A DNA stretch of 64,000 bases from Planctomycetota bacterium (GTDB lineage Bacteria; Planctomycetota; Planctomycetia; Pirellulales; Pirellulaceae): NCBI GenBank assembly GCA_014381825.1, contig JACNKX010000112.1:1-64000 (forward strand), read 5' to 3'. The first letter of the stretch is position 1; the number at the start of each line of letters is the position of its first letter. The notes under the pieces were generated by a model. The model searched no databases, had not been told where the DNA came from, and saw nothing but the letters and a program-made list of their open reading frames with translations. The position numbers and the translations under genes were made by a program. Of the stretch, positions 40,971 through 59,335 are shown piece by piece.

Positions 40971-41798
40971 TCAATCCTCGCTTGTTCGTTCGAGCCAGTG
41001 GCGATACAGCGGTTGTACTTGGAGTGGCAGTCGCTCGTATACATCCGCGCGGATTGACGGCACGACATTGTCCGTTGCTCCGACTTCGTCGCACATTCGT
41101 TTTCGTTCGTCTGACTCAGGTCGCAGCACTTCTAAATTCAGCCACCACGGCGCGTAGCGAACCGCCAACGCAACACGCGGTTGATCCGTTCGATTCGGAG
41201 CCGTTGCGTGCCACAGGCGACTGTCCATGACGAGCACACTGCCAGCCGATCCGCAGACATTGATCTCCTTGCCGAGTTTTGCATCCGGATCTGGACCGCC
41301 ACCAGCCGTTGGATTCGTTGGCTGGCGATGACTTCGCGGCAACACGAGCGTCCCGCCATTCTCAGCGTTAAAAGGCGACAGCATCCACAATGTCGTTAGG
41401 TGCATTACGGCGTCTGGATAGGGGGCGGGGATGTGGCCTGCATTTTTCTGATTGAAAGGCCAGTCCGCATGCCAACTACCACGTTCGTTGCCAGGTTCGT
41501 TAATGATCGCGGATGTAAACGAGATGCGAGCGTGTTCCCCGAGCAGTCTACCGACCAGCCGAAGCAACATCTCATCCGCGAGATATTCCACGAACGATTG
41601 ATCGTGATTAATGACGCTAGGAGTAAAGCCGACATTTGACGGAGCATCCGGGTAGCTCTTTCGCTGTCGACCAACCGTTCCAACGATGCTCTCTCGGACT
41701 TTCGCGCAGTGCTCTGGCGGAATGACGCTCTCGAGGATACAACACCCGTCAGTTTTGATCTGCCGCAAGCAGTCGTCGAGCTGTGAGTTGCGCTTCAT
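40971..41798 (-). CDS. phytanoyl-CoA dioxygenase family protein
   Basis: A 275-residue Fe(II)/2-oxoglutarate-dependent oxygenase-like protein. The iron triad is His110 and Asp112 in GSWHADWPF and His197 in DSRLWHATAPN, and Arg208 can bind 2-oxoglutarate. The N terminus (LRQIKTDGCCILESVI) is typical of the family. The frame is open to 41930, but ATG 41798 has AGAAGAG upstream and fits the family start. It is coupled to the aldo/keto reductase, so a hydroxylation followed by reduction is possible (inference). Confidence 0.92.
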   Translation of the reverse strand: MKRNSQLDDCLRQIKTDGCCILESVIPPEHCAKVRESIVGTVGRQRKSYPDAPSNVGFTPSVINHDQSFVEYLADEMLLRLVGRLLGEHARISFTSAIINEPGNERGSWHADWPFNQKNAGHIPAPYPDAVMHLTTLWMLSPFNAENGGTLVLPRSHRQPTNPTAGGGPDPDAKLGKEINVCGSAGSVLVMDSRLWHATAPNRTDQPRVALAVRYAPWWLNLEVLRPESDERKRMCDEVGATDNVVPSIRADVYERLPLQVQPLYRHWLERTSED

Positions 41799-42064
41799 TG
41801 ATGCTCTTCTGGGCAGGTTCAAAACGAAATCTTTGGACCCAAGGTCATCCGCAATCAGATGTTTCGCTGGCAGCGTATGATACTTGTTTCGCTCGATGCT
41901 TTCACCGACTGCCGTTTGGCGACGCGGCAATTCCGCCTGTAACGACGCTTCCCGTCCTGCGCGCCCCCCGGCAACGTATCAGAGCGATTAGATCGCTCCG
42001 CCCGTTGCTCTCTGATACAATCCGGCGAGCGGTCTCGAATAACGCCAATGAAAAGGAGACGGTA

Positions 42065-45000
42065 ATGTCGAACGCGGCCCAACGTAGACGAAACAGATTC
42101 CTATTCACCCCGATCTTCTTTGCGTTGCTGGGGAGTTGCGTCTGGTCTACCGCCCAGGAACAGGACCTCGCTTCGTCGGCACTCAAGGTGGCGGGAGTCA
42201 ATCGGGGCATCGCCGCTGTTATCGGAGTTGAGGAGTCGCTGGTCCAGAATCTTGTGGAAGGCAGTGAGTTACTCGTCTACGTGCGCGATCCGCGCGCCGA
42301 CGCGATTGACAAGCTCCGAGCCAGCTTAGAGGAATCGGGTATCGGCATCGACCGCGTGGTCGTCGAGCGAGGGTCTATTGATGAGCTTCCGTTTGCCGAC
42401 AACATGATCGATATCGTGATCGCACCGGAAACCACTAGAGAGTCGCTGTCCGCCCTTTCGCTTGCAGAAGTGAATCGTGTGCTGAGACCGGAAGGAACGG
42501 CGTTCCTCAATGGTCTTGAAGAGTTAACCAAGAACGCGGACATTGTTAATCCGAAGACGATGCCGCTTCCTCAAGGTGCGCTCGATGGTTGGGTCGCCTT
42601 CTCAAAACCGCCGCTTGATGGAGCCGACGACTGGTCGCATTGGGAGAAGAGCCCGGACAACAACCCGGTTTCGAGCGACAGCGTCATCAAAGCGCCGTAC
42701 ATGACGCAGTTCCTCGCGCACCCGATGTACATCGGAATGCCTTCGATCACGACTGCGGCGGGCGGACGCACCTTTCTCGCCATTGGCCACATTTCGCATC
42801 ATCAGCGCGAATGGGACACACTGTATAAGCTGGTCGCTCGCAACGGCTACAACGGCACCGTCCTCTGGGAGCGGCGATTGCCTGACGGCTACCTCGTGCA
42901 TCGCTCGGCGTTCATTGCCACCAGAGATACGTTTCACATGATCGACGGTGAGAGCTGCTTGCTGCTTGATGCGCAAACCGGCGAAGAGCAAGGACGAATC
43001 AAGCTGCCGGGCGTCGCAGGTCATTGGAAGTGGATGGCGATGAAAGATGGCGTGCTGTATGTCATGACCGGTAAGAAGGAACGCGGCACACAGATCGTGC
43101 GTGGCGACCGCGAGTTCGGCGGTTGGAGTTGGGCGGACCTGAGCCCCGGCTTCTACGGCGACTACCCCCACGGTTTTGGCGACACGATTGCCGCTTATGA
43201 CTTGGGCGAGGAAGAATTGTTGTGGGTCCACAACGAAGACAGCCTTATCGATTCGAGATCGCTGGCGATTCGCGACGACGGGGTCTTCTTTATGTGTCCG
43301 GATAAACATTTGCGCGCATTGCAAGCGACGACCGGCGAAGTGCTCTGGACGAACGACGAGGAACAAGTCCGTAGCTTGATCGCCGAACCGGGAAAGGGCC
43401 TGACGTCGACTCCTGGTTTCAAGACGATGTGCCTCGTCATGGCCACACCTGATGCGCTGATCATCCAAGGCCAGACCAGAATGAACGTCGTTGCCGTATC
43501 GACCTCTTCGGGCAGCGTGCTGTGGACCAAACGCAAAGTCACAAACAATCCGAACGCGATCTATGTCGATGGTGACATCGTCCTAGGAGTCGGGAAGGGC
43601 GGCACGCACGTCGTGGTGGATCCGGTGTCAGGCGAAGAGAAAGCGGACCTCGGTTTCCGTAAGGTCGCTTGCACGCGGCTCACCGCTTGTTCCGATTCGT
43701 TTTTCGTTCGCGGTGAAGGAATGCTACGGTTCGATCGCGATTCAAAGAAAGTCGAAATCGACGGGACGGCCCGGCCTGCCTGCAACGATGGTGCTCTTCC
43801 GGCTAACGGGATGCTCTACATTGGTCCTTGGCAGTGCGATTGCAATCTATCGATCATCGGCAGTATGGCTCGTTGCTCGGCCGGCGACTTTAAGTTTGAT
43901 CATGTCGCGACCAATGAAGAGCGATTGGAACAGTTCGTCGACGCGGACTACGAAGTCGCGGCGTTTGAATCGAGTGCTGCCGACTGGTCCACGTTCCGCG
44001 GAAACGTTCATCGTAGCAGCAGCTCACCCATCGAGATCGCTGGTCCCGCCAAGCCGCAGTGGGAGCTGACGTTAGATTCGGCAATGACACTGACACCGGC
44101 CGTCGCCTCCGCGGGACTGGTCTTTGTTGCTGGGAGCGACGGCAAGGTTCAGGCTCTTGAAGCGGCTAGTGGCTCGCACCGTTGGGAGTTTTCAACGCTG
44201 GCTCCGATCAAAGCTTCGCCAACGGTTTGGGAGGGCAGAGTGTATGTTGGTAGCGGCGATGGCTATGCCTATTGCTTGGAGGCGGCGACCGGCAAACTGC
44301 TGTGGAGATTCCGGGCCGCTCCGGTCGAACGTCACATCATGGTCTACGGTAACTTGTCATCGACGTGGCCGGTAAACACAGGCGTGACGATCCGAGACGG
44401 CGTGGCTTACTTCGGCGCGGGGATTGTCGATCACGATGGGACGCATGTCTATGCAGTCGACGCCAAGACCGGCAAGTTGAAGTGGCAAAACAATTCATCT
44501 GGCCATCTGGCGGCCGAGCTTCGCAAGGGTGTCGCCGCACAGGGCAACATGACGATGCTCGGCAATCAACTGCTGTTGGCGGGTGGCAATCAGGTTTCGC
44601 CCGCACCATTTGATGCGTCAACGGGCGAGTTGCGAGCCCACCCCTTTCAGAATGGTCATCCGAAAGCTAACAACGGCCAGTTCGTGGGCGTCTTCCAAGA
44701 CAAGATGGCAATCGTTGGTGGTCGCATTTTGTACTCAGCTGCAGACAATGTCGCGACGAAGGGAAGCTTTGTCGCGTTCTCGGGCAAAGGTGCGATTCAG
44801 TTGAACTTTGGCGGCGTGCCGCCAGCATGGAACGACGATACGATGGCGTTGGTAAACTTCAAGTACGGGAAGATTACTTGCGTCGCTGCGGAAGATGTCT
44901 CTGCGCAACTGGCTCAGGGACGCAGTGACAAACCAAGCGACCGAAGAGGAAGGGGCAACCTAACGGACTCGTTACGAGACGCCGGAAAGGTGAAATGGGA

Positions 45001-45268
45001 TACGAGTCTCGGCGACGGCAACAAGTTCGAGGCGGTCTCGCTGGCCGTCTGCCCGAACGCCATCCTCACGGTCAATAAGCAACAAGTTCGTTTTCGCGCT
45101 CAGCCTCAGTGGTACTTGACGGCTTTGGAAATCAACAGCGGCAAACCGATGTGGCAAACTGAACTTAGGGGGCAACCACTGCCTGGCGGCTTGCTCGTCG
45201 ACGCCTCCGGCCGCATTGTCGTAACAATGCTTGGTGGTCAGATACAGTGCCTTGCAAACGGAGGTTAA
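42065..45268 (+). CDS. exported methyltransferase-like / PQQ beta-propeller fusion
   Basis: A 1067-residue protein with a signal peptide (residues 10-30, ending WSTA). Residues 45-150 resemble a class-I SAM methyltransferase tail: a GSIDELPFADNMIDIVIA segment and EVNRVLRPEGTAFL. The usual glycine loop reads AAVIGVEES, so AdoMet binding is doubtful. Most of the rest is a PQQ-type eight-bladed propeller with repeats like LDAQTGEEQGRIKLPG, VYVGSGDGYAYCLEAATGKL and VYAVDAKTGKLKWQ, plus a Cys cluster (WQCDCN). AAGGAGACGG precedes ATG 42065; the frame is open upstream to 41783 but there overlaps the dioxygenase gene. Its function is unknown. Confidence 0.9.
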   Translation: MSNAAQRRRNRFLFTPIFFALLGSCVWSTAQEQDLASSALKVAGVNRGIAAVIGVEESLVQNLVEGSELLVYVRDPRADAIDKLRASLEESGIGIDRVVVERGSIDELPFADNMIDIVIAPETTRESLSALSLAEVNRVLRPEGTAFLNGLEELTKNADIVNPKTMPLPQGALDGWVAFSKPPLDGADDWSHWEKSPDNNPVSSDSVIKAPYMTQFLAHPMYIGMPSITTAAGGRTFLAIGHISHHQREWDTLYKLVARNGYNGTVLWERRLPDGYLVHRSAFIATRDTFHMIDGESCLLLDAQTGEEQGRIKLPGVAGHWKWMAMKDGVLYVMTGKKERGTQIVRGDREFGGWSWADLSPGFYGDYPHGFGDTIAAYDLGEEELLWVHNEDSLIDSRSLAIRDDGVFFMCPDKHLRALQATTGEVLWTNDEEQVRSLIAEPGKGLTSTPGFKTMCLVMATPDALIIQGQTRMNVVAVSTSSGSVLWTKRKVTNNPNAIYVDGDIVLGVGKGGTHVVVDPVSGEEKADLGFRKVACTRLTACSDSFFVRGEGMLRFDRDSKKVEIDGTARPACNDGALPANGMLYIGPWQCDCNLSIIGSMARCSAGDFKFDHVATNEERLEQFVDADYEVAAFESSAADWSTFRGNVHRSSSSPIEIAGPAKPQWELTLDSAMTLTPAVASAGLVFVAGSDGKVQALEAASGSHRWEFSTLAPIKASPTVWEGRVYVGSGDGYAYCLEAATGKLLWRFRAAPVERHIMVYGNLSSTWPVNTGVTIRDGVAYFGAGIVDHDGTHVYAVDAKTGKLKWQNNSSGHLAAELRKGVAAQGNMTMLGNQLLLAGGNQVSPAPFDASTGELRAHPFQNGHPKANNGQFVGVFQDKMAIVGGRILYSAADNVATKGSFVAFSGKGAIQLNFGGVPPAWNDDTMALVNFKYGKITCVAAEDVSAQLAQGRSDKPSDRRGRGNLTDSLRDAGKVKWDTSLGDGNKFEAVSLAVCPNAILTVNKQQVRFRAQPQWYLTALEINSGKPMWQTELRGQPLPGGLLVDASGRIVVTMLGGQIQCLANGG

Positions 45269-46743: not shown

Positions 46744-47559
46744 TCAGTCACTCGCACCACGGCGAAACCCACCGTTGATCGGGACGACCTGCCCGGTGAT
46801 AAAGTTCGCCGCAGGTGACGCGAGAAAACGGGCGCCACGAGCGACGTCCTCGGGCGTGCCCCAACGGCCGATCAGCGATTCGCGTCGCGCTCGCTCTTGC
46901 CAATACTCCGACGCGTCGTCGGCCCACGAAGTCTTGATCCAACCCGGAGCGAGACAATTGACTCGCACACTAGGGGCCAACGTTTGTGCAAGACTTTTGC
47001 TAAACGCCATGATCGCGCCTTTGATGGCGGCAAACATCTCGCCACTGTCTCCCGCCATTCCGCATTCGGCTTGATCCCAACCAACGTTCAAGATCACCGC
47101 ATCATCAGTTTCGCGCGCTCGCTCCTTCATCCGATCTCCGACCATCCGCGAGAGTCGTATCGTGGCCGTAACGTCGACCTGCCAGAGCAGCGCCAATTTG
47201 CCATCGAACGACAAATCGGCACTCTCGCCCGTCAAAACATCGGCACCGGCGTTGTTAATCCAGATGTCCACCCCATCACGCCAGTTCCAAGCTTGCTCGA
47301 CGAAACCTTCATGCGTTGCCGCGTCTCCAAGGTCGGCCATCAGGATGTGGCTGTCCCGATGCAGGCGTTGAATTTCGCGGCTGGTCGATTCAGCGCCCGC
47401 GTGATTGCTTCTTGCATGGACGATCACGTTTGCGCCCGCTCTAGCAAGTTCCAACGCGATTGCTCGACCGATGCCACTCGAAGAACCGGTGACAACAGCG
47501 ACCTTGCCGTCCAGGTCGTTCGTAGCAGATGTATCAGTTTTGTCGCTTGGTGCAGGCAT
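46744..47559 (-). CDS. SDR family protein lacking the catalytic Tyr and Ser
   Basis: A 271-residue short-chain dehydrogenase/reductase fold. The NAD(P) motif VTGSSSGIGRAIAL and the NNAG motif are normal. Where the Y-x3-K motif should be, the sequence reads Phe176-Ala-Ala-Ile-Lys180, and the Ser strand reads ILNVGWDQAE with no serine in place. Lys and the following LAPGWIKTSW loop are conserved. The protein may bind cofactor without normal catalysis or use another chemistry. It is divergent from an acyltransferase-domain gene 172 bases away, so it may serve a lipid or polyketide-like route. Confidence 0.9.
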   Translation of the reverse strand: MPAPSDKTDTSATNDLDGKVAVVTGSSSGIGRAIALELARAGANVIVHARSNHAGAESTSREIQRLHRDSHILMADLGDAATHEGFVEQAWNWRDGVDIWINNAGADVLTGESADLSFDGKLALLWQVDVTATIRLSRMVGDRMKERARETDDAVILNVGWDQAECGMAGDSGEMFAAIKGAIMAFSKSLAQTLAPSVRVNCLAPGWIKTSWADDASEYWQERARRESLIGRWGTPEDVARGARFLASPAANFITGQVVPINGGFRRGASD

Positions 47560-47731
47560 TTCAGACGAGATGATGTGAGGAGCGGAACAACCGTTGTCGC
47601 AACGTCGGTTTTACTTTGACTCGCACACGCCGACAAGCTCCGCCGATACTCAGACAGGAGAACATTCATGATGGATTAGGGGTTGGGCCTGAACAAGTCC
47701 GCAATTGCAGGAATTTCTATGGTGGCCATTG

Positions 47732-48856
47732 ATGGAAACTAACGAGTTGAAGTCGAAGCTGGAGTCAACGGCGTTCGCATTTCGCGGCTACAACATAACG
47801 AATCTCGGCCGAAGTCCGGAGATGCTCGCGCACCAAGCGTACGGCCCCGTGGTTCGCGATTGTCTGGAATCGGCCTCGTTAGTCTGTGCCGACGTGACTG
47901 GTAAGTCGGTCGATCTCGTCGGTCGCGTCGAGCGATGTGAGGAGACTTCGCTCGACACTTATGCCGAAGCGATCGCCATGATCATGGCTATGCAACAAGC
48001 TCAGATTCGAATCCTCGCCGAACAATTTGAGATCGAGTTGAAAGAGGCAAAATTCGCGCTCGGTTACAGTTTGGGTGAGATCACGGCGCTCGCTTTGAGC
48101 GGCGTGTTGGAGTTGAACGATGCGATGCGCGTGCCGCTGACATTGGCAGAGGACTGCGCGGCGCTCGCTCACGACGTCTCGCTTGGCGTCTTGTTCTCGC
48201 GTGGAAAGTCGTTGCCGCTGGACACGATTCAAAAGTTGTGCATGGAGATCAATCAATCGGCGAATGGCGTGATCGGCGTCTCCTCGATCTTGTCGCCGAA
48301 CTCGATTCTGTTGATGGGACAGGGTGATACGCTCGATCGATTCAAAGCTACGGCGCGACAGCTGCCCGATCGTATGACGCTCCGAAAGAATGACCACAAA
48401 TTCCCACCGTTGCACACTCCAATTGTTTGGCAGCGCAATATTTGCGATCGAGCGGCAGTGTTAATGCAGACTCTGCGTGGTGGTTTGACCGCGCCGCAAC
48501 CGAACGTTCTGTCGCTCGTCACGGGCAAGTGCAGCTACACGGACGTCAACGCGAGACAGACGCTGCAAGACTGGACCGATCATCCACAGCTGCTCTGGGA
48601 TGCCGTCTACGAAGTTCTTCGGTCAGACGTCGATACCGTGATTCATGTCGGTCCCGAGCCGAATATCATGCCGGCCACGTTCACGCGGCTCAAGGACAAC
48701 GTGGAAGCTGAAACAAAGGGAAAGATCGGCATGCGAGCGTTAACCGCAGTCGTCGATCACCCGTGGATCAAACGATTGTTGCCGGAGCGCACCGCGCTGC
48801 TACGTGCTCCGATGATCGAACAGATCATCTTGGAAGATTGGTTGCTCGCACAATAG
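47732..48856 (+). CDS. acyltransferase (FabD/PKS AT-like) domain protein
   Basis: A 374-residue stand-alone protein of the malonyl-CoA:ACP transacylase fold. The nucleophile elbow is GYSLGE with Ser113, where the family has GHSxGE. A catalytic-type His228 is present in KFPPLHTPIV. The usual N-terminal GQGSQ oxyanion loop is replaced by RGYNITNLG, and the Arg that binds the malonyl carboxylate is not evident in the region after LELNDAMRV. It may therefore use a non-malonyl acyl group or not be a transacylase. ATG 47732 is preferred over TTG 47705. Divergent from the atypical SDR. Confidence 0.78.
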   Translation: METNELKSKLESTAFAFRGYNITNLGRSPEMLAHQAYGPVVRDCLESASLVCADVTGKSVDLVGRVERCEETSLDTYAEAIAMIMAMQQAQIRILAEQFEIELKEAKFALGYSLGEITALALSGVLELNDAMRVPLTLAEDCAALAHDVSLGVLFSRGKSLPLDTIQKLCMEINQSANGVIGVSSILSPNSILLMGQGDTLDRFKATARQLPDRMTLRKNDHKFPPLHTPIVWQRNICDRAAVLMQTLRGGLTAPQPNVLSLVTGKCSYTDVNARQTLQDWTDHPQLLWDAVYEVLRSDVDTVIHVGPEPNIMPATFTRLKDNVEAETKGKIGMRALTAVVDHPWIKRLLPERTALLRAPMIEQIILEDWLLAQ

Positions 48857-48871
48857 CGGACTTGCCAACGT

Positions 48872-50575
48872 TCAATCGACTGTCGGCAATCGGTAGCAGG
48901 CGGCTTCTTCAGCATTGCGAACGAGTAACAGGTCTCCGTACAAACATGGAGTATTCCACGTCTTGCCTTCGATGGCGACGAACTTAGCGACTTCATGGAA
49001 ACGATCGGGCGTCGCCTCCACCATAACCACTTCGCCAGATTCCGCTTGGATCACGAGCACATCGTCAACGAGCAGGACCTGACCATGCCCGTAACGGCCT
49101 TTCTTCCACTGTTTCTTGCCAGTGTCGATCGCGATGCATTCGGCGATTCCATCGGACAGTCCGTAGGCGAAGCCTTGGCGAATAACATGATTCGTGAGCT
49201 TCGTCTTCAACACGGTCCTTTTGTCCCAGACTTTAGTTGCCGAGATGTTGCCATTCGCCTCGGCGGACAATTGCCAGAGCGCCGCGCCCGTGGAGTATCC
49301 CTTGGAAAGCAACAATCGTCCATCGCTCAGCAAGGTCGCTTGCGACACATTCGCTTCCCCAACGCTACTACCCTTCCAAGCTATCTCCCACAGCACATCG
49401 CCGGTTTGCGGGGCGTGGCCGCTGACAGTGTCTTCGTTAACGCTCACGATCATTTGTTGATCACCAATCGCCGCGAGCGTGGGCGAGGCGAAGCTGACTT
49501 GTCGGTCGCCCGCTTCCCAGACAAGTTCACCTGTTACGCGGTTGAACGCAGCAAGCGACACGCGTGGCCCTGCTTCGGGACCACCGACGGGAACGACGAC
49601 GAGGTCGTCAACGATCAACGGCGAGTTGCTGCGTCCCCATGCAACGGCCCTTCTATCTTCGCCCGGCGGAACGTGGTAGCGCTCCAATATGTTGTCGTGC
49701 CACAGCATTTTGCCAGTCGCTCCGTCAAGGCATAGAAAGCTGCCGGACGGCCCAAGTGTATAAACATACCCTTCATGAATCACTGGCGTGCTTCGCGGGC
49801 CCGTGCCACCGAGTATTGTGTGATGGCGGTTCGCTTCGCCGTGTCCCCATCGTAGTTTTCCTGTGGCAATCTCGTAACAGGTTACAAGCTCTTCCTCGCC
49901 TCGCTGCTCCATCGTGAGGGCAAAGCCATTGACCGCCACAAAGCCTGACCAACCTGCACCTATCGGTTGACGCCATAGTAGCTCCGGCGGATGGCGATCC
50001 CAGTCTCTTTCCAATTTGAGATCGGAAACCGTTCCATTACGATGCGTTCCCAACCACTGAGGAAAATCTTTCTCTGTGGTTGTTGCCAAATCGACACCAT
50101 CTGCATTGCCCACTTCGGAAGCCGTTTCGAGCAACGCATCGATTGGAGGTGCCCACCGCGATCGGAATGTCGGAATCAACTCGCCCGAGACGTGCCCTAT
50201 GCGAAACATAGTGAAGAACGCGGTAACACTAGCAACGACCGCAACGCAGCAGCCAACGCGAAACATTCCAGAATAACCACTGAAAAATAGAAACCAAAGA
50301 GCGAGCGTGCAATAAGCCAGAAAGCCGAGGATCAACGTCAAGATGTTTACAATAGCGTGGTCACCGCCCACGTCTCGCACTCGCATGACCATGATCATTG
50401 CGACAGTAAATGCCACAACAATCCATACCCACAGGGGCGGGACGAGCGGTTTTCGAGGGCTAGCCGCACTAAGATCCTTCGATCGGGACGGATCCTTCGA
50501 TGGGGACGACACATCCGCCTCGTGGGACTCATACGGGTTTTGGGACGCAGTCTCGTCGTTCGGCTCGTCCGTCAC
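48872..50575 (-). CDS. membrane-anchored PQQ-like beta-propeller protein
   Basis: A 567-residue protein with a polar N-terminal stretch, then about four membrane helices between residues 45 and 150 (WVWIVVAFTVAMIMVM, ILTLILGFLAYCTLALWFLF and VAVVASVTAFFTMF). A PQQ-type propeller follows, with LWRQPIGAGWSGFVAVNGFA, VYTLGPSGSFLCLDGATGKM and LVWEAGDRQVSFASPTLAA. GTG 50575 is chosen as start because GAGG lies nine bases upstream; TTG 50581 would be too close to it. The propeller is probably extracytoplasmic. Its promoter region is largely a palindromic repeat. Confidence 0.88.
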   Translation of the reverse strand: MTDEPNDETASQNPYESHEADVSSPSKDPSRSKDLSAASPRKPLVPPLWVWIVVAFTVAMIMVMRVRDVGGDHAIVNILTLILGFLAYCTLALWFLFFSGYSGMFRVGCCVAVVASVTAFFTMFRIGHVSGELIPTFRSRWAPPIDALLETASEVGNADGVDLATTTEKDFPQWLGTHRNGTVSDLKLERDWDRHPPELLWRQPIGAGWSGFVAVNGFALTMEQRGEEELVTCYEIATGKLRWGHGEANRHHTILGGTGPRSTPVIHEGYVYTLGPSGSFLCLDGATGKMLWHDNILERYHVPPGEDRRAVAWGRSNSPLIVDDLVVVPVGGPEAGPRVSLAAFNRVTGELVWEAGDRQVSFASPTLAAIGDQQMIVSVNEDTVSGHAPQTGDVLWEIAWKGSSVGEANVSQATLLSDGRLLLSKGYSTGAALWQLSAEANGNISATKVWDKRTVLKTKLTNHVIRQGFAYGLSDGIAECIAIDTGKKQWKKGRYGHGQVLLVDDVLVIQAESGEVVMVEATPDRFHEVAKFVAIEGKTWNTPCLYGDLLLVRNAEEAACYRLPTVD

Positions 50576-50589
50576 GGTCAAGTTCCTCT

Positions 50590-50668: not shown

Positions 50669-51427
50669 CTAGCCGCGCCCGACAAGCGGCATCTTTGTTG
50701 CCATGACCGTTATGAATTGTACGTTGGCGTCGAGCGGCAATCCGGCCATATAGAGAATGGCTTGCGCGACATTTTCAACGTCCATTGTCGGCTCGACGGC
50801 AATCGATCCATCCGCCTGTGGCACGCCGTCGGCCATCCGCGCGGTCATCTCGGTGGCTGCGTTCCCAATATCGATCTGACCGCAGGCGATGTCGAAATTG
50901 CGACCGTCCAGCGAAGTCGACTTGGTCAGGCCGGTGATCGCGTGCTTCGTAGCCGTGTACGGAGCCGAATTCGGTCGCGGCGCATCTGCCGAGATTGAAC
51001 CGTTGTTGATGATGCGACCGCCCATCGGCGATTGCTTCTTCATCATTCGCACAGCCGCCTGCGTGCATAAAAACGCTCCTGTCAAATTGACATCGACGAC
51101 CGAACGCCATTGCTCGAAGGTTAGCTCTTCGATTGGAACAGGCGGCGCGCCGGTTCCCGCATTGTTGAACAGCACGTCAAGCCGTCCAAAGGCCTGTTCG
51201 ATCTCCGCGAACAGTTGGTTTACCGAAACTGCATTCGTAACATCCGTCGCAACCGGTAACGCCCGGACTGAGTCCGGTCCAGCGAGCTTCACGGTTTCCG
51301 CTAGAGCATCTGATCGTCGTCCAGCCAAGGCGACTGAGTAGCCTTCGCGTAACAATGCCAAGGCTGTGTGCCGCCCAATGCCGCTGCCCGCTCCCGTGAC
51401 GAGCGCGGTCTTTCCGTTAGGGTCCAT
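50669..51427 (-). CDS. SDR family oxidoreductase
   Basis: A 252-residue classical short-chain dehydrogenase/reductase. [13 protein letters not shown] binds the dinucleotide, LDVLFNNAG is the NNAG motif, and Ser144, Tyr157 and Lys161 form the catalytic set ([19 protein letters not shown]). It is an ordinary active-looking enzyme and contrasts with the SDR at 46744, which lacks Ser and Tyr. The substrate is unknown. It lies between the TPR gene (25 bases upstream of its start) and a palindromic repeat downstream. Confidence 0.94.
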
Positions 51428-57458: not shown

Positions 57459-58406
57459 ATGCACAATCGCCGCGAAGCAATTCAGATTGCCGCCGTTGGA
57501 GCCGTCGCCGCTCTTGCCGCTCGATCTACAACCGTATCCGCCGCAGAAGAAAGATCCGCCGGGCAGCACAGCAACCGAATCGCGGTATCCACTTATTCGT
57601 TCTGGCAGTTCCGTCATCAAGAATTGCGAGACGTCGAAGGGTGCATCAATCGTTCGGCAGAGATGGGCTTCGATGGCGTTGAGATCTTGCATCGGCAAAT
57701 GGAGACCGAAGAAAACTCCTATCTCCAAAAACTAAAGCGAGCTGCCTTTGTCAACGGCATCGATTTATGTGGTTTCTCGACGCATCAAGGTTTTCTCTCG
57801 CCCGACGAAGCCGTGCGGCAAAAGAACATTGATCACACGATTCGCTGTATCGAGCTGGCGTATAAGCTGGGTATCCCAACGATTCGCGTCAACACAGGAA
57901 CGTGGGGAACGAGCAAGAACTTTGACGAGTTGATGAAGAATCGCGGCATCGAGAAACCTCGTGAAGGATTCACCGACGAAGACGGTTTCGGTTGGGTGAT
58001 CGACAGCTTAGAGAAGTGCTTGCCTGCCGCCGAGCGATGTGGTGTGCTGTTGGGATTAGAGAATCATTGGGGACTTGGTCGAACTCCTGAAGGAGTGATG
58101 CGAGTCGTTAACGCCATCGATTCGTCGTGGTTGCAAGTGACGATGGACACTGGCAACTTCCTGGAAGATCCGTACGAACGACTTGAACAGCTCGCCAAGA
58201 AGACGGTCCTTGTGCAAGCCAAGACTTACCACGGTGGTGGATTGTGGTACCAGCTTGATCTCGACTACCCACGCATCGCAAAAATGTTGCAACGTTACAA
58301 ATATCGCGGATACGTATCGCTCGAGTTCGAAGGGCGTGAAGATCCACTCGCTGGCATCCCGAAGAGTCTCGCCATGCTCCGCGAGACGTTCGCCGGGAAC
58401 TCGTAA
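57459..58406 (+). CDS. sugar phosphate isomerase/epimerase family protein (TIM barrel)
   Basis: A 315-residue member of the xylose-isomerase-like/AP-endonuclease-2 TIM-barrel family. An N-terminal twin-arginine-like segment (NRREAIQIAAVGAVAALAA) suggests export, although the second Arg is followed by Glu. Barrel motifs include EMGFDGVEILHRQM, CGVLLGLENHWG (metal-ligand Glu), DSSWLQVTMDTGNFL and YKYRGYVSLEFEG. These enzymes interconvert sugars or inositols. The stop overlaps the next gene's start (TAATG). Why a probably exported isomerase would be coupled to a methyltransferase-like protein is unclear. Confidence 0.92.
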   Translation: MHNRREAIQIAAVGAVAALAARSTTVSAAEERSAGQHSNRIAVSTYSFWQFRHQELRDVEGCINRSAEMGFDGVEILHRQMETEENSYLQKLKRAAFVNGIDLCGFSTHQGFLSPDEAVRQKNIDHTIRCIELAYKLGIPTIRVNTGTWGTSKNFDELMKNRGIEKPREGFTDEDGFGWVIDSLEKCLPAAERCGVLLGLENHWGLGRTPEGVMRVVNAIDSSWLQVTMDTGNFLEDPYERLEQLAKKTVLVQAKTYHGGGLWYQLDLDYPRIAKMLQRYKYRGYVSLEFEGREDPLAGIPKSLAMLRETFAGNS

Positions 58407-59335
58407 TGGCCGAGCGATTTCGAGTGTTGGAGTTGTTCGCTGGTATCGGAGGCTGTGCGGCCGCGATCGGCGAGCTAGCCGACATCGTTACCGCAGTCGA
58501 GACCGATCAAGATGCACTCGCGATTTATCGCCATAACTTCTCGCACCCAACGTGTGATCAACCAGTAGAGTCCCTGTCGACGCGATGGTTTCGAGACCGC
58601 GCCGCGGATGTATGGTGGATGTCACCACCCGTGTTACCATACGTTCATGCTGGCCTGCGACGGGAGCTCGACGACGCGCGTTCCAATGGCATACTCCACG
58701 TTCTGGATCAAGTAATCGCTGTCAAGCCTCGCTATGTCGCATTAGAATGCGTACCGGATTTCGACAAGTCACTAGTTCGCCAAAAGTTGCTTGAGACGCT
58801 TGCCGACTGCGATTACCAATGGCAAGAAACGCAGCTCTGCCCGACGGAGTTAGGCGTCCCAAACGAAAGAAGGCGTTATTACTTGGTTGCCGGTCGTGAC
58901 GAATTGCAGCCCTGGAAGCCGTTAAACCCGACGAGCCGGTTCCGATTAGGATCCACGCTTGACGAGTCTGCAGACGACGATCTAGTGATCGCCCCCGAGT
59001 TGCTTGCCATGCATCGCAACACGATGCATGTTGTTGATCCGAGTGAAGATTCTGCTGTTTCGTCTTGCTTCATGTCGGGCTACGGCAGATCGGTGAACAA
59101 CACCGGTTCTTATCTTAGGCACGCTCTAGCCGTGCGATACTTTTCGCCAACCGAGATCCTTCGACAGTTAGCGTTTCCTGATTCGTTCACGCTACCCGAT
59201 TCAACATCTCGCGCAACCGTGTGGCGAATGGTCGGCAATAGCCTGTCGCTTCCTGCAGCGCGATACATCCTCGAAGCGATTCCCGGGCTCATCTCACGAA
59301 GATCTCGCTTCGTTCGTGTCACAGAAGAGGAATAG
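58406..59335 (+). CDS. Dnmt2-like cytosine-C5 methyltransferase with lost catalytic Cys
   Basis: A 309-residue class-I cytosine-C5 methyltransferase fold, closest by pattern to Dnmt2 (TRDMT1), which methylates C38 of tRNA-Asp. Motif I is LELFAGIGGCAAAI; motif IV reads MSPPVLPYV, so Val76 replaces the catalytic Cys of PPCQP and Leu replaces Gln. Motif VI reads ALECVPDF, with Cys115 where Asn is usual (ENV). PNERRRYYLVAG keeps the R-x-R pair (Arg155, Arg157). CFMSGYGRSVNNTGSYL corresponds to the CFT motif diagnostic of Dnmt2, and FSPTEILRQLAFP plus MVGNSLSLPAARY match the last motifs. No restriction enzyme is nearby. It may be a pseudoenzyme, an RNA binder or an enzyme with a moved nucleophile. 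Confidence 0.88.
   Translation: MAERFRVLELFAGIGGCAAAIGELADIVTAVETDQDALAIYRHNFSHPTCDQPVESLSTRWFRDRAADVWWMSPPVLPYVHAGLRRELDDARSNGILHVLDQVIAVKPRYVALECVPDFDKSLVRQKLLETLADCDYQWQETQLCPTELGVPNERRRYYLVAGRDELQPWKPLNPTSRFRLGSTLDESADDDLVIAPELLAMHRNTMHVVDPSEDSAVSSCFMSGYGRSVNNTGSYLRHALAVRYFSPTEILRQLAFPDSFTLPDSTSRATVWRMVGNSLSLPAARYILEAIPGLISRRSRFVRVTEEE

Follow-up and report, generated by a model that had tools for sequence, protein, structure and literature searches.

A short-chain dehydrogenase with an altered active site as a candidate reductase of tetrahydromethanopterin biosynthesis in Planctomycetota

What reaction could be left to an enzyme with the short-chain dehydrogenase/reductase (SDR) fold when its catalytic Ser, Tyr and Asn have all been replaced? 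This question is raised by a divergent gene pair in the genome of a planctomycete of the Pirellulaceae (assembly GCA_014381825.1), located in the stretch of 64,000 nucleotides that we analysed (contig JACNKX010000112.1, positions 1 to 64,000; hereafter the window). One gene (46744-47559, minus strand) encodes an SDR-fold protein of 271 amino acids, while the other (47705-48856, plus strand) encodes a protein with the fold of FabD. A preliminary description, which noted that both proteins depart from the norm at their reaction-defining residues, had suggested a dedicated lipid- or polyketide-like system with altered chemistry. The substitutions turned out to be fixed across the orthologues, in agreement with altered chemistry, but the recurrent neighbours are named mostly as genes for the biosynthesis of tetrahydromethanopterin (H4MPT), a one-carbon cofactor. 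Overall, the SDR very probably belongs to H4MPT biosynthesis in Planctomycetota, where it most likely acts as a dedicated NAD(P)H-dependent reductase.

Active site of the SDR

Both open reading frames were found where the preliminary description had placed them, and its picture of an SDR that has lost Ser and Tyr while keeping the cofactor motif and Lys180 was borne out. The motif GxxxGxG is formed by G25, G29 and G31, each Gly being present in 99 of 99 aligned sequences; Phe176 occupies the position of the catalytic Tyr, four residues ahead of Lys180, and Trp161 that of the Ser. A third change, Asp129 at the position of the catalytic Asn, was absent from the preliminary description. Residues were counted in 96 orthologues (97% non-redundant) from several planctomycete families. 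Blastopirellula marina (L118) is one of the species with an orthologue of the SDR. W161, D162 and K180 were found in 96/96, as were D107, T110, W207, W212 and W220; F176 was found in 94/96, with Tyr in the other two (loci of G419 and G133), and D129 in 94/96, with Glu in 2/96. Thus, the homologue comparison suggested by the preliminary description brought out a canonical residue only at the Tyr position, in 2/96 SDRs. The controls, 20 next-best non-orthologous SDR matches chosen by hand in the same or related genomes, carried Tyr in 20/20, Ser in 19/20, Asn in 18/20 and Lys in 20/20. In a quick tree, orthologues and controls were split by one branch with an SH-aLRT value of 100, which shows distinct groups rather than function. 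The SDR was present in 40/40 genomes of a sample of near relatives; the best match in each was 49-83% identical (query itself excluded), and the next SDRs listed reached at most 39%. These data show that the loss of Ser, Tyr and Asn is fixed across the orthologues.

In its fold, cofactor motif and Lys, the protein resembles FabG-type SDRs, and its best PDB profile match is a FabG-type protein. The AF2 model (predicted local distance difference test, pLDDT, 90.8) has the classical SDR fold and superimposes on FabG 4jro with a Z score of 33.8 and 2.1 A over 241 residues. In Pfam, the protein matches adh_short_C2 and adh_short, and the remaining matches are SDR families and one sub-cut-off NAD(P)-binding domain. 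A total of 221 NCBIfam models match it, with PRK07231 and FabG-type models ranking first; the 25 best all lie under their own cut-offs, and the FabG equivalog TIGR01830 scored 143.9 bits against a cut-off of 297.75. The protein therefore has the motif, Lys and fold of a classical SDR but not the Tyr, Ser and Asn, and it differs from FabG-type enzymes in carrying Trp, Phe and Asp at the places of Ser, Tyr and Asn as well as in being encoded with H4MPT genes.

Such a protein might have given up catalysis and serve as a pseudo-oxidoreductase that binds a cofactor or a pterin and provides a scaffold for the dihydropteroate-synthase-like (DHPS-like) enzyme discussed below. Ser, Tyr and Asn have indeed been lost together, and the PDB title of 3itd terms a Tyr-to-Phe 17beta-hydroxysteroid dehydrogenase inactive. 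However, the invariance of Lys180, D107, T110, W161, D162, W207, W212 and W220, together with the complete cofactor motif, exceeds what a scaffold needs, so that this explanation seems to us quite improbable.

Association with genes of tetrahydromethanopterin biosynthesis

The distribution of the SDR family was examined within Planctomycetota, using 392 genomes of this phylum and a profile threshold of E 1e-60. The SDR was found in 48 of them (E at most 4.9e-90), as one copy per genome, and Mch (PF02289), a marker of H4MPT, in 50. All 48 SDR genomes were Mch positive (Fisher p 1e-59, uncorrected for phylogeny), while the two Mch-positive genomes without the SDR, G185 and G352, both belong to family f67. 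SDR and Mch were both absent from family f2 of the same order, represented by two sampled genomes (G167 and G357). Furthermore, a DHPS-like gene (TIGR00284) was detected at E 1e-20 in 49 of the 50 Mch-positive genomes and in neither of two Mch-negative genomes tested, none of the matches being over the family cut-off.

In 27 of the 48 SDR genomes, the SDR gene lies directly upstream of the DHPS-like gene on the same strand, with less than 1 kb to the match; in one genome the two are about 6 kb apart, and in 20 they are unlinked. The genome of the window is among the latter, with the SDR on contig C224 (that of the window), the DHPS-like gene on C225 and Mch on C87. Downstream of the SDR in many SDR-bearing contig loci, we found genes for a dihydropteroate-synthase-like/DUF6513 protein, PabB, PabA, DUF447 and beta-ribofuranosylaminobenzene 5'-phosphate (beta-RFAP) synthase, and further out PdxJ- and DapA-type genes also recur. 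In families f70 and f76, the cluster comprises Mch, a RimK-like ATP-grasp protein, CitG, PTPS, the SDR, pterin-4a-carbinolamine dehydratase (PCD), the DHPS-like protein and PabB. The same order without PCD is seen in G064 of family f55 and likewise in G306 of that family, where Mch is on another contig. Many of these loci come from metagenome bins, in which binning errors are possible. The restriction of the SDR to Mch-positive genomes and its frequent operon position with pathway genes place it, very probably, in H4MPT biosynthesis. As to the SDR-negative genomes, G185 has PCD adjoining its DHPS-like gene, and G352 is also without a DHPS-like match at 1e-20.

The clusters with PTPS and PCD could also mean that the SDR, working with these neighbours, reduces an early or recycled pterin, of the dihydroneopterin/monapterin type or a quinonoid dihydropterin. 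PTPS stands beside the SDR in f70, f55 and f76, and PCD is found in f70 and f76 as well as near the SDR in two f4 loci (L216 and L218); in addition, a pteridine-reductase model and TmpR are among the sub-cut-off NCBIfam matches of the SDR. Yet the SDR matches pterin-reductase models less strongly than FabG-type models, and queries from f70 and f55 found no PTPS or PCD in 37 SDR-bearing contig loci. We think this role improbable.

The same gene context bears on the lipid- or polyketide-type pair of the preliminary description, whose ketoreductase and acyltransferase, both altered, would work on an acyl-acyl carrier protein. The folds of the two proteins are those of FabG and FabD, as this would require, but both the neighbours and the phyletic profile match H4MPT synthesis, and the SDR occurs without the FabD-like gene in 12/40 near relatives. 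A ketosynthase linked to the pair had been proposed as a check: the genome has seven ketosynthase matches, none of them (0/7) on C224; no search for acyl carrier protein genes was made. One of the ketosynthases (C228:27458) directly follows a canonical fabD homologue (C228:25275) and a canonical SDR (C228:26246), a group that looks like an ordinary fatty acid cluster. On gene context and phyletic profile, we reject the lipid- or polyketide-type system as very improbable. Naming by fold (3-oxoacyl-acyl carrier protein reductase, malonyl transferase) would send both proteins to the wrong pathway.

Candidate reactions of the SDR

Within the pathway, our tentative proposal is that the SDR reduces dihydromethanopterin (H2MPT) to H4MPT, taking the place of DmrA and AfpA/DmrB without being homologous to them. 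The reaction proposed would be that of these enzymes and the families differ: the known H2MPT reductases are described, in excerpts of PMC6193120, as DmrA, which is like dihydrofolate reductase (DHFR) and occurs almost only in alphaproteobacteria, and the flavoproteins AfpA/DmrB or DmrX. According to the same paper, AfpA gave a dmrA mutant of Methylobacterium extorquens back its growth on C1 compounds. The SDR has no DHFR or flavoprotein match in Pfam. Planctomycetes possess H4MPT-linked C1 genes, and Chistoserdova (PMC5020050) gives the Afp gene, for the AfpA-type H2MPT reductase, as unrecognised in their genomes. In line with this, none of the 50 Mch-positive genomes had a match over the cut-off for AfpA (TIGR02699; best 30.6 vs 192.45 bits, sub-cut-off matches in 13/50) or for the MJ0208 type (TIGR02700; best 39.9 vs 251.35 bits, sub-cut-off matches in 48/50), and these families were discarded as the expected H2MPT reductase. 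Many of the sub-cut-off rows of TIGR02700 sit at model positions of about 140-200, which probably represents a shared iron-sulphur-type stretch. An ordinary DHFR is no general substitute either, because 31 of the 48 SDR genomes, 26 of them from f4, have no DHFR_1 (PF00186) match over the cut-off (G349 among these negatives is only 55% complete). Such a match was found in 17/48 SDR genomes and in both Mch-positive genomes without the SDR.

How could an SDR without Tyr and Ser carry out this step? In PTR1, a pteridine reductase of the SDR class that reduces dihydropterins, the dihydro-to-tetrahydro step is protonated by activated water, as stated in excerpts of PMC1618733. Because activated water gives the proton there, a Tyr-less SDR could perform the same step. 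The planctomycete SDR would bind the pterin intermediate, hydride would pass from the nicotinamide without a Tyr/Ser proton relay, and the proton would come from activated water, with the invariant D162 next to the Ser position as the proposed activating acid. PTR1 and the window SDR have in common the fold class, the pterin context and an acidic residue close to where the Ser would stand. PTR1 keeps the Tyr and has Asp at the Ser position itself, whereas the window SDR has Trp161 at that position, then Asp162, and Phe176, and does not fall among PTR1-type enzymes.

Several observations weigh against H2MPT reduction. The closest sequence and structure matches of the SDR are FabG-type and other carbonyl reductases rather than pteridine reductases; no pteridine reductase was among the best 50 rows of the fold comparison, which were FabG and other SDRs that act on carbonyls or sugars. 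The motif TGX3RXG, which we take to be that of PTR1, is not present in the SDR. Arg50 after strand 2, which would speak to NADPH preference, is found in just 60/99 sequences, and Phe176 is not essential, because two of the 96 orthologues have Tyr. G185 and G352, which are Mch positive and lack the SDR, are also without AfpA over the cut-off and both have DHFR (n=2), and PF00186, through which DHFR genes were counted, may miss DmrA, for which no specific search was made. Finally, the adjacency to the DHPS-like gene suits another reductive step at least as well, namely the opening of the ribofuranose ring.

In that step, 4-(ribofuranosyl)aniline, which derives from RFAP and which the DHPS-like enzyme couples to the pterin, would be opened reductively by the SDR to give the 1-deoxyribityl chain. 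The structure of this substrate is our assumption, and we regard it as the nitrogen analogue of a 4-(furan-2-yl)phenol. Pushed by the para-amino nitrogen, the benzylic C-O bond would break, and the resulting aza-quinone methide would receive hydride from NADPH, so that the Tyr/Ser relay would be unneeded, and Lys180 and D162/D129 would handle the protons. The SDR gene standing directly ahead of the DHPS-like gene (27/48) fits such an order of steps. The plant enzymes that come closest to this chemistry, pinoresinol-lariciresinol reductase (PLR), PCBER and eugenol synthase, are NmrA-like reductases. They and pterocarpan reductase share with the window SDR the superfamily and the Lys, and use a quinoid intermediate, cleaving C-O bonds of 4-(furan-2-yl)phenols or related compounds (excerpts of PMC13304732 and PMC1991597). 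In pterocarpan reductase, the ring of a 4-(furan-2-yl)phenol is opened by way of a quinoid intermediate whose formation is triggered by Lys, a mechanism that its authors extend to PLR and PCBER (PMC13304732); eugenol synthase, a relative, has no catalytic Tyr, needs its Lys and has been proposed to act by way of a quinone methide (PMC1991597). Room for such an enzyme exists, since an estimate of 2011 left seven methanopterin biosynthesis proteins unknown even in two methanogens (excerpts of PMC3087415).

Ring opening is, however, an argument by analogy. The plant enzymes come from a different branch of the superfamily, act on phenols and have a separate substrate-binding domain, and the SDR gave no NmrA-type Pfam match at E 0.001. 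Moreover, a step common to all H4MPT makers would be expected to have one shared enzyme, while the SDR family was seen in Planctomycetota, the only phylum searched. We regard ring opening by the SDR as rather unlikely, and rank H2MPT reduction above it because there one phylum both lacks the enzyme and has the new family. A wider scheme, unlikely as a whole, would make the SDR the first ring-opening enzyme to the ribityl chain and a bacterial counterpart of the plant PLRs: its Ser, Tyr and Asn would have been shed since the group reduced is an aza-quinone methide instead of a carbonyl, and the FabD-like partner would acylate or deacylate an intermediate, giving a planctomycete-specific variant of H4MPT.

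Whether for H2MPT reduction or for ring opening, a reductase that is single-copy, often operon-linked and strictly co-occurring, and whose active site has been rebuilt, offers one named candidate gene for a gap in the pathway. Within the library searched, no paper joined dihydromethanopterin and short-chain dehydrogenase, and the titles and abstract openings listed there gave no description of either gene, though a 2004 paper on planctomycete C1 genes (cited in PMC5020050) may describe the cluster. The main text of the essential-gene paper on Planctopirus limnophila (PMC10632474) does not mention methanopterin or pterin, and passages of PMC6787355 and PMC8305020 contain nothing decisive.

The FabD-like partner and the surroundings in the window

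The FabD-like gene is annotated from a TTG at 47705, but its true start is probably the ATG at 47732, because several orthologues have a Met matching the latter. The predicted model of the protein (pLDDT 90.9) superimposes on Acinetobacter FabD 5ypv with a Z score of 31.9 over 301 residues at 2.8 A, which supports the FabD-type fold named in the preliminary description. Its residues were counted in 94 aligned rows (two of these are the window protein, and the two genome collections share some genes) and compared with controls hand-chosen among the best matches, 24 non-orthologous loci of which 22 aligned. Ser122 and His237 are present in 94/94 rows, and Ser and His in 22/22 controls. In contrast to the controls, which have GQGxQ in 22/22, the rows have Arg-Gly-Tyr/Phe-Asn/Asp in place of the oxyanion loop (RGYN in the window protein), with the first Gln of the loop in 0/94, and the position of FabD Arg117, which is Arg in 22/22 controls, has Arg in 0/94 (L 52, M 32, I 4, F 3, V 3). 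The reported absence of the GQGSQ loop and the malonyl-binding Arg thus holds throughout the family. The reported GYSLGE in place of GHSxGE also recurs, the second residue being Y in 75 rows, F in 16, H in 2 and L in 1 (n=94); it is nevertheless the least informative of the changes, because 21/22 controls read GLSLGE and not GHSLGE.

No Pfam family matched the FabD-like protein, and the NCBIfam matches were weak, to MdcH (best, 1.5e-9), a polyketide synthase model and FabD, all of those shown being sub-cut-off. The fold and the Ser-His pair are shared with FabD and MdcH. The protein differs from FabD in the loop and Arg117, in its score against TIGR00128 (29.8 vs 260.9 bits) and in exceeding FabD chains by about 65-75 residues. 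The protein is most naturally read as an acyl-Ser enzyme without malonate binding: it would probably form an acyl-enzyme with a non-malonyl substrate and act in the same pathway as the SDR or on the cofactor of that pathway. More specifically, it could act on a pathway intermediate by acyl transfer or hydrolysis, a possible but doubtful assignment.

In the phylum sample, the FabD-like gene was counted in 9/392 genomes, a number set by our reading of a gap in the scores. All nine were Mch positive, and the gene was confined to the family and order of the window plus one f5 member of the class (G377). Titles suggest that the matching contigs are mostly from Pirellulales. Four loci labelled Spirochaetes (L116, L119, L126 and L144) have the gene at 49-54% identity, as mislabelled bins or through transfer.

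The divergent arrangement of the pair was compared in two sets, the 40 near relatives and the best 80 of 161 stretches encoding a FabD-like relative that were found by profile in named genomes; the two are not independent because some genomes are common to both. Among the relatives, 28/40 have the FabD-like gene, and in 17 of these 28 it stands side by side with the SDR, always divergently, with 60-414 bases between the matches. The co-occurrence and layout raised in the preliminary description are therefore recurrent where both genes are present, while the 12/40 relatives with the SDR alone mark the FabD-like protein as an accessory that the SDR can do without. Of the 80 contig loci, 32 have the divergent pair, five have both genes on the same strand with the SDR 1.9-3.8 kb downstream, and 43 show no SDR within the sequence retrieved, 12 of which had less than 900 bases upstream. 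In the window, the intergenic stretch between the divergent starts spans 47560-47731, and a promoter scan of 47400-48000 gave no promoter-like match.

Among FabD-like loci without an adjoining SDR, CitG is near in L145, L147 and L168, with PTPS as well in L168; PabA and DUF447 lie about 9 kb from the FabD-like gene in L112, and PabB and a PabC-like gene, the latter so named from its sequence, are near it in G377. The queries used found no pathway gene in the majority of the 43 SDR-less loci. CitG was considered as a constant partner and rejected: it is present in 34/34 FabD-like genomes, adjacent in 0/34 and within 2.5 kb in 3/80 contig loci (the three just named).

Next to the FabD-like gene in the window, a PQQ/BamB-type beta-propeller protein is encoded at 48872-50581 on the minus strand. 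Its family recurs near the FabD-like gene in 27/80 loci and lies between the FabD-like gene and the SDR in L122, L124, L141, L151 and L156. A second SDR of 252 amino acids (50669-51427, minus strand) has its Ser and YxxxK directly readable. On the plus strand, an open reading frame of 1161 amino acids (41783-45268) combines a methyltransferase-like stretch (residues ~165-241) with PQQ beta-propeller repeats, and a gene matching C-5 cytosine DNA methylase (58406-59335; PF00145, 4.2e-27) adjoins a gene for a xylose-isomerase-like TIM barrel.

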